A stretch of DNA of 64,000 bases. It comes from Thermoplasmataceae archaeon. GTDB taxonomy: Archaea; Thermoplasmatota; Thermoplasmata; Thermoplasmatales; Thermoplasmataceae. Positions 2,794 through 7,906 of this stretch are shown piece after piece (position 1 is the first letter of the stretch; each line of letters begins with the position of its first letter). The notes below the pieces were generated by a model. The model saw only the letters and a program-made list of their open reading frames with translations, did not search any database and was not told the origin of the DNA. The DNA lies in NCBI GenBank assembly GCA_038729425.1, contig JAVYSB010000002.1, positions 171,052-235,051 on the forward strand, written 5' to 3'. The translations under genes were made by a program, and so were the position numbers.

Positions 2794-3498
2794 TCAGTAC
2801 CCGTGCCATGGGCCCTCGAGAGCCTGCTTTAAGCGCAAGATTTCATCCTCGTATTCCTTTGTTCCTTTGGCGTATCTCTTAACCGGCATCCGTTCGGTCT
2901 TCCCGGTTTTAAGAGACACCGGTTTTGACATAAGTTCCCTTATCAGGTTCGGGTTTCCACTCGGAATGTTTGGCAGGCGATTTTTCGGTTTCACTTCTCT
3001 AACAGTCTCGGGCTTGGTTGTTTCACTCACCGCCCCGCTGATCTTCGGGATTTCTAAAATAGGGTCTTCTGCCCTGATTTCCTCAGGTGCAGGTCGGGGA
3101 TCCTGCACATGATGCTTTACAACAGACCCCCTTTCCTTGGCAGAATCTGCATCATTTTCCTGCAGAATCGGTACATACTGGTCTTTGGGATGCCAGATAT
3201 GGTTCCGGCCGACGGCATCCTTCTTGTAGCTGGTCAAGGAGTCCTCTATACCAACTATCGAAACAACGTCTCTGCTCTCGCCAAGGATCTTGTTTATCTG
3301 TTCGGCAAGCTTTTCCACAAATTCTTTGAGCTTGGGAACCTCAAGGGCTTCACGCAGAACCCGCTGAATCGCTTCCTTATCAGTTTCACCGGGCCATTTG
3401 AGCAATTCAAGGACCAGGTAATCGTCTCCATCAAGAACCATGCTGTTATACGGTTCTTCTTCCTTTGTTTCCCTGACTGTCCTTTTCCTTGCCGGCAT
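2794..3498 (-). CDS. Putative RHH-like partner of the actin-like ATPase, unknown function
   Basis: 234 residues, not matched to a named family. Residues ~17-52 (YNSMVLDGDDYLVLELLKWP and the following amphipathic helix EAIQRVLREAL) have the strand-helix-helix spacing of ribbon-helix-helix DNA-binding proteins. Residues 52-72 continue as a charged, possibly coiled-coil helix. The middle (~75-200) is Pro/Glu/Lys-rich and looks disordered; a short helix (EYEDEILRLKQALEG) closes the protein. It lies 60 nt downstream of the actin-like ATPase on the same strand, preceded by a GAGGT ribosome binding site. RHH proteins are the usual adaptors (ParR) of actin-type plasmid segregation, so an adaptor role is inferred from fold pattern and position only. 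Confidence 0.5.
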   Translation of the reverse strand: MPARKRTVRETKEEEPYNSMVLDGDDYLVLELLKWPGETDKEAIQRVLREALEVPKLKEFVEKLAEQINKILGESRDVVSIVGIEDSLTSYKKDAVGRNHIWHPKDQYVPILQENDADSAKERGSVVKHHVQDPRPAPEEIRAEDPILEIPKISGAVSETTKPETVREVKPKNRLPNIPSGNPNLIRELMSKPVSLKTGKTERMPVKRYAKGTKEYEDEILRLKQALEGPWHGY

Positions 3499-3558
3499 AT
3501 TATAGATACCTCTTTAATAGGGCGCGAAATAATATCTAATAAAAAAGGAAAAATTGGT

Positions 3559-4536
3559 TTATTTCGTTCGCTCTGCAGCGTCCTTGTAACCAAGGCAGTT
3601 AGCAAACTGCAAGTCTTCTGGAGCTGCAGTCACCAGTGCACCCGGTGCCAGAACATCTAGGGTATGGCCTATTAGAGCTGCGCCACCCCCTACTGGTATT
3701 AGTGCAGTGACCCTGTCAAGTTCTCCCCTAAGATTTGCCCTGAGATTATCAAGTATCCTGTCTGAGAGCTCCTTGAGTATCGGCGCACCAACTTCTGCAC
3801 CTCCAACTTGCCTCTGTTTGAACATAACAGGCGAGGTGAGTGCCTGCCTAGCTACGTCCGTCGGGACTACGAAACCTGTTTGCCTGGCAATGAGCTTTGC
3901 AATACTTGAAACCGCATCGCCTATACCCGCTTCAATGGAGAAAGACATCTCCACAACGGGCTCCATGTTCATAAGGTTAATAGTGAGGACATCTGTAGTC
4001 CTTGATCCAATATCCACCACCAGTCCGTATCCAGGCTGGCTCTTGACCAAACCCTTTTCTACGAGGTATAATGCAGCCCCCACTCCCTGAGGTCTCATCA
4101 CAAGCTTCTCAATATGGACTTGTCTTGACTTTCCATCGTTTGCTTTTATGGTTATGGTCTTTCCTTCAAGAGACTCCCTGGCGGCTGCTACTTCCTGGTC
4201 AAATGTACCCAGCGGTGTTCCGCTTCCAAGCACCACGCTTGTCTGGGCGCCACCATCTCCTGCGCCACTGAGCCACAGGGCCGCCCCTAGCAAAGGCAAT
4301 GAATCTGCACTGGAAAGCCTCCCATCTCCGAGAGGTTCCCTCACGCCTGCCCCAGTAGCGTTCTCTCCAAATATAAAAGGCTCATCGTCATTCATTGCAA
4401 GCGAGAGTATGGAACCACCGAATCCCCACTGTTTGGCATCATATCTGGCCCATCTCGATGGGAATTTCTCTCTGCGACCATCCACACCAACTACCTTTGT
4501 ATCTCCGTATCCCAAATCTACTCCAACTGTGACCAT
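3559..4536 (-). CDS. Actin-like ATPase of the Thermoplasma Ta0583 family
   Basis: 325 residues, the same length class as Ta0583, a crystallised archaeal actin homologue related to ParM/MreB. All nucleotide elements are present: phosphate-1 loop DLGYGDTK (7-14), phosphate-2 loop VVDIGSRTTDV (173-183) and adenosine motif PVGGGAALIG (281-290). Other blocks shared with Ta0583 as I recall it include MRPQGVGAALYL, TTDVLTINLMNMEPVVE and PEDLQFANCLGYKDAAER. Expected to bind ATP and possibly polymerise; the in vivo role of this family is unsettled (DNA segregation or shape). The start is preceded by a GAGGAAGAAAGG ribosome binding site. The putative RHH partner follows downstream. Confidence 0.92.
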   Translation of the reverse strand: MVTVGVDLGYGDTKVVGVDGRREKFPSRWARYDAKQWGFGGSILSLAMNDDEPFIFGENATGAGVREPLGDGRLSSADSLPLLGAALWLSGAGDGGAQTSVVLGSGTPLGTFDQEVAAARESLEGKTITIKANDGKSRQVHIEKLVMRPQGVGAALYLVEKGLVKSQPGYGLVVDIGSRTTDVLTINLMNMEPVVEMSFSIEAGIGDAVSSIAKLIARQTGFVVPTDVARQALTSPVMFKQRQVGGAEVGAPILKELSDRILDNLRANLRGELDRVTALIPVGGGAALIGHTLDVLAPGALVTAAPEDLQFANCLGYKDAAERTK

Positions 4537-4995
4537 ACCTTTCTTCCTCTTATATGCGACCTCGATCAGTTTTCCCTGGCATGTTGCACGGTGGCGTAAG
4601 TGTAGGATGCAAGCACTTTTCGGTTTTTAAAGAATCAATGTTCACGGATATCACCCTCACTGCGCTCTCTGGTTATTAATGTACACTATCGCCTCAATAG
4701 ATATTCTACTGATTCGATGCCAGTCGCACATGTTGCATCTATTAGCTACATAAATATAAATCTTTTTCCTAAACGCATGAGTTCTGCATGGGTTAAATTA
4801 AATAGATATCCTTGAAAATAGCCATTCTGACGAAAATCGAAAAATTTCGCTTTGGACTGTGCAGCGAAATTTTTGTATGTGATAAAATGATGGACTTATT
4901 TACATACACAGGCACTCACTTCATTGACTATTAAGAAAACACCAGAAATAAAATGAGATTTCGCCAATTTGATCTGGTGAATGAAAAGGTCTTCA
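4537..4995. other. Intergenic region upstream of the actin-like gene
   Basis: 459 bases with no supported gene. It holds the actin gene leader, a TTTAAAAA promoter-like stretch on the minus strand near 4622-4630, three loosely similar TGTTGCA/TGCTTGCA words (4583-4589; 4607-4616 reversed; 4732-4739), and a perfect 12-bp inverted repeat listed separately. It is the natural place to look for a centromere-like site if the actin pair segregates DNA. Confidence 0.5.
4840..4874. repeat. Perfect 12-bp inverted repeat, possible hairpin or terminator
   Basis: Arms AAAAATTTCGCT (4840-4851) and AGCGAAATTTTT (4863-4874) are exact reverse complements separated by 11 nt. Read on the minus strand it follows the stop codon of the secreted-protein gene by ~120 nt and ends in a T-rich run, so it could be a terminator for that gene; being symmetric it could also be a protein-binding site ahead of the actin gene. 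Confidence 0.6.
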
Positions 4996-5639: not shown

Positions 5640-7424
5640 ATGGTCCAATACAAGTGGGTTGCACTGTCGAATACAACGATAGGGGTACTGATGTCTTCCA
5701 TTAACGGGACAATTATGATGATATCCCTCCCAGCCATATTCAACGGTATTCAGATTGATCCTTTCCAGGCAAGCTCGTTTGTCTATCTTCTCTGGATACT
5801 CATGGGCTACATGATCGTAACAGCAGTCATGCTCGTGACGGTAGGCAGGCTCTCTGATATATTTGGGAGAGTGAGACTTTTCAACCTTGGGTTCCTTATA
5901 TTTACGGTTGGGTCAATACTTCTCTCTGTGACACCAAGCAAAGGAGCACTTGGCGCACAGGAGATAATCATGTTCCGGATTGTCCAGGCAATAGGCGCCT
6001 CATTCTTGTTTGCAAATTCGGCGGCTATAATTACTGACAGCTTTGGCCCGGAAGAAAGAGGAAAGGCAATGGGCATTAATCAGGTCGCTGGCCTGGCAGG
6101 TTCCCTGATTGGACTGATTCTTGGGGGAATACTGGCTGCCATAAACTGGAGATACGTATTCCTGGTAAGCGTACCTGTCGGGCTTCTTGGCACAATTTGG
6201 TCATATGCTAAACTCAAGGACCATTCTGTCAGGCACAAGGATCAGAAGGTAGATGTGTTAGGTAACCTGTCCTTTGCAGCTGGGCTAACCCTTATTCTTA
6301 TAGGCATAACCTACGGTTTAATGCCGTATGGATCCTCCAGCATGGGCTGGGGTAATCCATGGGTAATAATATCAATGATTGCTGGAATGATCATGCTGAT
6401 GGCTTTCGTGTTCATTGAAAGGTCCGTAGACCAGCCTATGTTCAACATGTCCCTGTTCAGGAATAAGGCATTTTCCACGGGTAGCTTCGCTGGAATGCTG
6501 CAGTCAATGGGAATGGGAGGGGCAATGTTCATGATCATAATTTTGCTCCAGGGTGTCTGGTTGCCACTACACGGGTACTCGTATACAAGTGTTCCATTCT
6601 GGGCAGGGGTTTACACAATTCCTATGATGTTGGGGTTTGTTGTCTTTGGGCCGATAAGCGGCGCAATTTCTGATAGAACCGGGGCAAGGGTCATTTCTAC
6701 TGTGGGCATGGTAGTAGCCGCGGTCTCCTTTGTACTGCTTTCCACACTCAACTTTAACTTTACCTATACAGGTTTTGCCCTCATGCTTTTCATGATGGGT
6801 TCTGGAATGGGCCTTTTTGCTGCTCCAAACGTAACAGCAATAATGAATTCTGTGCCTCCACAACTAAGAGGAGTTGCATCTGGAATGAGGGCAACTCTGC
6901 AGAACACAGGGCAGACAGCCAGTATGGGTATATTCTTCACAATCGTTCTCGTAACACTGACGACAAAACTTCCAGGAGCGTTCTCCGTGGCCCTTGGCCA
7001 AGCCGGAACACCCGAGCTTATACCGTTCTTCAATCAGATTCCTCCGACCTCTGCACTGTTCTCAGCATTTCTGGGATACAACCCTGTGCAGACCATTCTC
7101 AGCTTATTCCCCGCAGGCTTCACGTCTTCCCTATTCTCCAGCGGAACGCTGGCTATACTTGAGGGAACCACGTGGTTTCCGATGGCTCTTGAAGGTGCAT
7201 TTATGGGATCCCTGAGAATGTCATTCTATCTCGGGGCTATAATTTTTGCTGTTGCTGCATTCCTCTCCGCGATCAGGGGAAAACGGTACATATTTTCGGA
7301 ACCGTTAAAAATGACGGAAGTTTCTAAACCAACAGACGAAAGTGCAAAAACCCTTGGACCTCTGGTCGAGAGACAGATAGAAGCAAAGATTCCTGATTCG
7401 CAAGGAAGCAGGGGAGTAAAGTGA
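5640..7424 (+). CDS. MFS multidrug exporter, DHA2 (EmrB/QacA) family
   Basis: 594-residue membrane antiporter with about 14 hydrophobic segments, the DHA2 layout. The motif-A loop between TM2 and TM3 reads [13 protein letters not shown]; the arginine-bearing [15 protein letters not shown] segment and the motif-C-like GxxxGPxxGG region ([15 protein letters not shown]) follow. The C-terminal ~40 residues are a hydrophilic cytoplasmic tail. Substrates are probably hydrophobic drugs or toxic organic acids, expelled with proton gain. The MarR regulator immediately downstream (TGATG junction) very likely controls this operon. Leaderless start inferred. Confidence 0.92.
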
Positions 7425-7906
7425 TGGATCAAAAGGACGAATTCAGGGAGACTGTAGAAAGTGGTGACGCACCGCCAGTTCAGGACGACCTGTGGAAGGT
7501 CTTTTCAAGCGTGGCAAGAAATGGTAGGAGGATCTTCAGTCAGGAACTGGAGAAGATGGACATGAAGGTCATGGAGATGCGGGTGCTTCATTACCTTCAC
7601 AAAGAGGGTCCAAGCACCATGACCTCTCTGTCTGCTGATCTTGACGTAACCGGACCTTGGATTACGGGGCTAGTTGATGAACTTGAGAAAAGGAATTTCG
7701 TTACAAAGGAACGGAGCAGTAAAGATCGCAGGGTTGTTAACGTGGCGCTGACAGAAGAGGGTGAAGCCGCAGTTCATAAAGGGTACATGGTATACACGGA
7801 AATACAGAACATGTTATTCGATGAACTCAGTCCAGAAGAGTTCAGGCAGTTTGTCTCAATAATGAAGAAACTTGAGAATTACCTGAATAAGAGTTTAAGA
7901 AAATGA
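7424..7906 (+). CDS. MarR-family transcriptional regulator
   Basis: 160 residues; winged helix-turn-helix at about residues 45-120 (MRVLHYLHKEGPSTMTSLSA, recognition helix around PWITGLVDELEKR, wing KERSSKDRRVVNVALTEEG with the conserved D-R-R). Flanking helices would form the dimer interface. The ATG at 7424 shares its A with the exporter's TGA stop; an in-frame GTG one codon upstream is the alternative. MarR proteins commonly repress an adjacent efflux pump and release DNA on binding phenolic or other small ligands, so autoregulation of the exporter operon is the likely job. Confidence 0.93.
   Translation: MDQKDEFRETVESGDAPPVQDDLWKVFSSVARNGRRIFSQELEKMDMKVMEMRVLHYLHKEGPSTMTSLSADLDVTGPWITGLVDELEKRNFVTKERSSKDRRVVNVALTEEGEAAVHKGYMVYTEIQNMLFDELSPEEFRQFVSIMKKLENYLNKSLRK

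Follow-up and report, generated by a model that had tools for sequence, protein, structure and literature searches.

A conserved chromosomal pair of a Ta0583-type actin and a predicted ribbon-helix-helix adaptor in Thermoplasmataceae archaea, possibly a ParMR-like module

Ta0583, the actin-like ATPase of Thermoplasma acidophilum, has a solved structure and some biochemistry, and its role in the cell is not agreed. A gene of this type lies in the 64,000-nucleotide stretch of a Thermoplasmataceae archaeon analysed here (the window), followed by a gene for a 234-residue protein, which raises the question of what this second protein is and what the two genes do together. A sequence-only reading of 2794-4536 had placed both genes there on the minus strand, where we also find them, and had proposed that the second encodes a ribbon-helix-helix (RHH) partner of the actin in a chromosomal partition-like or cytoskeletal module. 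It had also held that no partner of Ta0583-type actins is described, in agreement with our own search of the literature outside subscription papers, which returned no description of one. The features discussed below are collected in Table 1.

Table 1. Features of the actin/partner locus, in window coordinates.
Feature	Position	Strand	Basis
Ta0583-type actin-like ATPase, 325 aa	3559..4536	(-)	Pfam, PDB and PHROG matches
Partner, putative adaptor protein, 234 aa, ParR-like architecture	2794..3498	(-)	Adjacency, selection
RHH-like segment, residues 18-53	3340..3447	(-)	hhalign against RHH_1; AF2
Remainder of helix 2 beyond the RHH-like segment, residues 54-95 (coiled or extended)	3214..3339	(-)	AF2 pLDDT ~58-86
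Disordered, fast-evolving linker, residues 96-205	2884..3213	(-)	AF2 pLDDT ~45-61; dN/dS
C-terminal motif L223-KQALEGP-W231, proposed actin-binding tail	2806..2832	(-)	Conservation; AF2 helix
Shine-Dalgarno-like AGAGGT before partner ATG	3508..3513	(-)	Sequence
Conserved 34-bp element GTAGCTAATAGATGnnnnATGTGCGACTGGCATC, candidate operator/binding site	4716..4749	(-)	4 genomes of the genus
Putative archaeal BRE/TATA-like promoter (AAAAAGATTTATATTTAT)	4750..4768	(-)	Conserved sequence adjoining the 34-bp element on its upstream side

The identity of the actin is clear. It matches Pfam ALP_N (1.2e-29) and MreB-like_C (1e-42), both over their full length, and its best solved relative is Ta0583 itself (PDB 2fsj, E=3.8e-131 over residues 1-324), after which plasmid ParMs are the nearest solved structures in the PDB search. 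PHROG 691, annotated as 'partition protein', matches it end to end (E=1.6e-37), and the phosphate and adenosine motifs of actin are invariant (alignment A2). With full-length homology and the nucleotide-binding motifs kept, the protein is a Ta0583-type actin, as had been claimed. Its setting is that of a chromosomal gene: the contig measures 280 kb, the genome 1.45 Mb, and ordinary chromosomal genes surround the pair, with triosephosphate isomerase (TIM) downstream and an MFS-type transporter, GntR and MarR regulators and tRNAs among the neighbours in the window. At 5640-7906, the MFS-type transporter gene overlaps the MarR-family regulator gene, likely a drug or solute export pair with its regulator. 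Among 400 sampled genomes of the class, above-cutoff matches to the actin family occur only within the family of the window species.

The second gene follows the actin wherever its position can be read. Actin is present in 37 of 117 Thermoplasmatales genomes, and a profile search of the same set (E<1e-15) recovered 30 partner genes in 29 genomes; all 29 testable ones lie directly 3' of an actin gene on the same strand (60 nt downstream in the window), the thirtieth being left out of the count because it runs off the end of a 3,156-bp contig. Nowhere in the 117 genomes was a partner gene found away from actin. The complete pair is kept in 28 of the 37 actin genomes, spread over nine genera that include Thermoplasma (where the partner beside the actin is short, 102-106 aa), E-plasma, UBA447, Thermogymnomonas and ASS_A1, and it stays joined while the flanks vary by genus (TIM, peroxiredoxin, zinc ribbon/EF-1beta and others). 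The ASS_A1 genome carries two complete pairs with strongly divergent actins, 57% and 66% identical to that of the window (L039/L080, L053/L078). In a Thermogymnomonas draft the actin is frame-broken and the partner intact, possibly through sequencing error (L044/L096).

The downstream gene is missing in Acidiplasma-type (g2) and Ferroplasma-type (g4) genomes, nine in all, that have an actin. Intact actins persist in the Acidiplasma-type and in some Ferroplasma-type genomes; other Ferroplasma-type actin genes are broken (L045, G062:C22:25282-25443). In the actin tree, partnerless g2 MAGs group with g12 (support 95/92), and Acidiplasma and g4 actins group with g8/g16/g17 (support 93/93). Partnerless actins are therefore nested inside partner-bearing ones, meaning that the partner was lost rather than never gained. 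The C-terminal DAAxR of the actin is common to partner-bearing archaea and missing in partnerless ones; we rejected it as a partner signature because Bacillota with a small downstream gene lack it too.

What kind of protein the partner is cannot be read from family databases: Pfam, NCBIfam and PHROG gave only noise (RHH_1 for two members, best E=0.26), PDB searches by phmmer with the window partner and by hmmsearch with the family profile gave nothing credible and no ParR, and the viral contigs and phages searched held no relatives. Profile comparison is more telling. A head profile built from residues 14-65 of 24 partner proteins was aligned by hhalign to a profile of 30 RHH_1 matches from the same order; the match spans residues 18-53 and 36 of ~39 columns (prob 92, P=6.8e-7, score 30.0), against top scores of 17.5 in 200 column shuffles and 16.9 in 48 windows of the actin alignment, which is non-RHH. 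The strand-helix-helix pattern thus runs over the whole domain in the partner family and is weak in the window genus alone. Taken by group, the P value is 1e-6 for g8/g12/g16/g17 alone, 5e-5 for Thermogymnomonas alone and 7e-4 for Thermoplasma; for the window genus the match is partial and below significance (P=0.0024), and for E-plasma, where the ribbon strand is poor, it is not significant (P=0.018). The RHH call for the window protein is thus made through the whole partner family, since its genus falls short by itself; this genus and E-plasma are joined to the other partners by operon position, by resemblance at the N-terminus (E 1e-4 to 9e-4 between the window protein and partners of g12/g17) and by the tail described below.

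The AlphaFold2 monomer of the window partner has an extended stretch at 17-23 and helices at 24-33 and 40-95 (pLDDT ~90 at 21-50), and this predicted head is shaped like one subunit of an RHH dimer. The strand-helix-helix layout proposed for residues ~17-52 thus survives both the profile comparison and the shape of the model, and so does the proposed order of a coiled segment followed by disorder, with helix up to residue 95 and disorder from about 96 to 205. Foldseek searches with two AF2 monomer models returned no RHH or ParR match; the query offers only one unpaired strand and two helices, and because the ribbon needs a dimer this outcome carries no weight either way. As for DNA binding, the RHH core of the window partner is acidic and its strand is without the basic residues common in DNA-binding RHHs, the basic residues sitting in the N-terminal arm; in most genera helix 2 still opens with S/T and the strand keeps polar residues.

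The sequence-only reading overlooked the opposite end of the protein, where AF2 places a confident helix (214-228, block pLDDT 85-91) with the motif LKxxLExxW. This C-terminus is the best-conserved part of the partner family: across 24-26 partners E228 and W231 are invariant and L227 is kept in over 90%. For two sister species, the closest pair compared in the window genus, dN/dS is 0.044 over residues 1-85 and 0.046 over the last 31 residues, against 0.174 in the linker; other species pairs give the same order of conservation across head, linker and tail, and linker identity falls to 29-43% in more distant pairs of the window genus. Strong purifying selection acts on the two ends, and the linker between them evolves fast. 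Two constrained ends joined by a free linker match the design of ParR, in which an N-terminal RHH binds DNA and a C-terminal tail enters a hydrophobic ParM pocket at the growing filament end (PMC5016525); this tail comprises 17 residues in the ParR of R1, and the C-terminus is required in that of pSK41 (PMC4911067).

Upstream of the actin, the 34-bp element occurs in all four genomes of the window genus, one copy per genome and always at this place, and genus g17 has a 25-bp dyad upstream of its actin, also once per genome. At the available loci examined, no direct-repeat array was found upstream of actin, repeated 7-/8-mers not rising above shuffles; an AATAGAT triple in the window was rejected as a repeat (P=0.26). 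A single conserved element fits an operator or a single-site centromere, not dispersed parS-like sites. A link to the replication origin was dropped because cdc6 genes lie far from actin in other closed genomes (38-140 kb in Thermoplasma and E-plasma). The window also holds a perfect 12-bp inverted repeat with an 11-nt loop (AAAAATTTCGCT/AGCGAAATTTTT, 4840-4851 and 4863-4874); it separates the actin promoter from an upstream gene for an exported protein and may be the terminator of that gene.

The intergenic region may also be regulatory. In many genera an oligo-T run lies between the actin stop and the partner gene. In three sister genomes of the window genus and in g17, g8 and g16, the 3' arm of a hairpin lies over the partner's Shine-Dalgarno sequence or its start codon; the arms differ in sequence between genera (CTTCTATG/CATAGAGG in the window genus, CATCCTT/AAGGATG in g8 and g17; loci L003-L010, L013-L018), only the window genus reaches strong fold z-scores (-3.1 to -4.8), and the window species itself has no such hairpin. 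Together, hairpin and oligo-T suggest, as a lead only, that less partner than actin is produced.

How closely, then, does the pair resemble known systems? As in ParMRC (R1, pB171, pSK41, C. perfringens pCW3), an actin ATPase gene is followed by the gene of a small RHH-type protein, the adaptor carries its RHH at the N-terminus and a conserved tail (here LKxxLExxW) at the C-terminus, and a promoter and putative binding site lie upstream of the actin gene. The differences are as marked: the window pair is chromosomal and archaeal, its tail motif is its own, the linker is very long in the window genus, no similarity to any characterised ParR is detectable, and in place of parC direct repeats upstream of the actin there is only the single-copy conserved element. 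Direct repeats are bound by all characterised ParRs (PMC9426499), and since a repeat centromere was sought and not found we call the pair ParMR-like in design and do not class it as ParMRC. Within the archaea, the window actin is orthologous to Ta0583 of T. acidophilum (PDB 2fsj/2fsk/2fsn), and Thermoplasma genomes likewise have a version of the partner alongside, much shorter than that of the window with its long linker. Salactin of Haloarchaea, another archaeal actin, affects DNA distribution and is implicated in that of the chromosome (PMC10746226). SegAB of Sulfolobus and ParA segregation systems likewise combine a chromosomal ATPase with a small DNA-binding protein (here predicted), but their ATPase is of the ParA Walker type, not an actin.

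The plasmid connection is older than this analysis: the 2006 structure paper reportedly proposed that Ta0583 derived from a plasmid ParM. Acidophilic Bacillota MAGs encode Ta0583-like actins (36-51% identity, several copies per genome; L087-L099) followed by a small gene of 85-128 aa whose product begins with an RHH-like strand and, in most MAGs, ends in an aromatic motif (LEGRW, IQGPW, LDRAF, LEDRY), the tail pattern having been chosen after the sequences were seen. Unlike the archaeal pair, several of these Bacillota pairs adjoin VirD4/TraG-like conjugation genes, as judged from sequence. The conjugative Sulfobacillus plasmid pY0017 carries a more distant actin (28%), annotated ParM/StbA, with a small downstream gene whose product, unlike the archaeal partner, has no aromatic tail motif. 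The small Bacillota proteins have no significant homology to RHH proteins or to the archaeal partner, and we rejected the idea that they are its homologues; only operon position and tail motif stand, so that a plasmid origin of the archaeal pair is plausible, not proven.

A different segregation gene appears in lineages that lack the partner. Of the 10 Ferroplasma-type genomes, 9 carry a chromosomal ParA gene (~285 aa) followed by a conserved gene of 107-120 aa, as do both genomes of g13, putatively Picrophilus; no genome with the actin/partner pair does. Loci with these two genes in genomes of the two types are L132:3028-4237, L133:3485-4646 and L134:3793-4993. The two genes are possibly a separate segregation system; one member of the second family is weakly like Rho_N. 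Such a distribution would be expected if one DNA-segregation system had taken the place of another, but it involves two genera only: the exclusion clusters in the phylogeny (11 genomes), and many other genera lack both the pair and the ParA operon, which means that the pair is not essential for segregation across the family.

From these sequences, an actin and RHH-adaptor pair on an archaeal chromosome is well supported by the conserved operon, the RHH homology and the ParR-type conserved tail. We consider it somewhat better than an even chance that the pair is a ParMR-like module of the archaeal chromosome which moves or anchors DNA. This reading draws on the adjacency (29/29), the RHH match, the invariant tail, the selection pattern and the ParR-like design; on the PHROG 'partition protein' and plasmid ParM matches of the actin; on the Bacillota pairs beside conjugation genes and the unique upstream element in two genera; on the nested loss of the partner and its absence where a chromosomal ParA operon is present; and on the Salactin precedent, as well as on pSK41 ParM, which is stated to be structurally closest to Ta0583 (PMC4911067). 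Against it weigh the missing direct-repeat centromere, the acidic RHH core of the window protein, the weak E-plasma ribbon, the lack of a direct sequence match to ParR, the many relatives without either system and the clustering of the ParA exclusion in two genera. The earlier idea of a partition-like or cytoskeletal module thus gains an operon, an RHH head and a ParR-type tail, and finds no iteron centromere.

In a ParMR-like mechanism, the Ta0583-type actin would be the filament motor, and the N-terminal RHH dimer of the partner would bind DNA, with the site ahead of the operon as its target or starting point; from there the partner could also repress its own promoter. The long flexible linker would carry the amphipathic C-terminal helix (LKxxLExxW) to dock on actin, much as the ParR tail does in the end pocket of ParM, and filament growth would move or anchor the chromosome. 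Such a module would probably have been taken over from a plasmid partition system. In its fullest form, this proposal has the chromosome segregated by actin through the RHH adaptor at the single upstream site, by a module domesticated from a plasmid ParMR partition system and later replaced by ParA in Ferroplasma and Picrophilus; so much taken together is possible, and we hold it to be doubtful.

Of the other explanations, the main rival is that the actin gives the wall-less cell its shape or organisation and that the RHH protein is a DNA-binding repressor or assembly regulator, no DNA being moved. This would suit the unsettled cellular role of Ta0583, the single operator-like element in place of a centromere array, and the intact actins of Acidiplasma-type and some Ferroplasma-type genomes, kept without a partner. 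However, a conserved tail on a long linker exceeds what a repressor needs, the window actin is nearest to partition actins, and actin decays among Ferroplasma-type genomes, a group with the ParA operon that has lost the partner; we therefore judge a purely shape-related role unlikely. Ranked next is a dimeric actin assembly or capping factor, in which the RHH would serve only to bring two tails to one filament end, in the manner of the arcadins; crenactin has its own small regulator, arcadin-2 (PMC5173319). That the tail is better conserved than the head, with the acidic core and the poor E-plasma ribbon, would be expected of such a factor, but most genera keep S/T at helix 2 and polar strand residues, and the conserved upstream element fits a partner that binds DNA, so that a factor without DNA binding seems to us quite improbable.

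A last possibility, a chance operon neighbour of unrelated function, is already disfavoured. The partner does diverge much faster than the actin, as an unrelated neighbour might; strict adjacency in nine genera despite changing flanks, the absence of any partner away from actin and the two complete pairs of ASS_A1 nevertheless make coincidence very improbable.

Chromosome segregation in these wall-less cells is little known. Given a conserved partner whose head is of a DNA-binding type and whose tail likely faces the actin, the question of what Ta0583 does narrows to a single binding site, a single tail peptide and a single interface, each of them predicted. Should the pair indeed segregate the chromosome, it would represent actin-based DNA movement for the chromosome of a wall-less archaeon, by way of a defined adaptor; and, if true, its history would record how a plasmid partition system was domesticated and then gave way to another.
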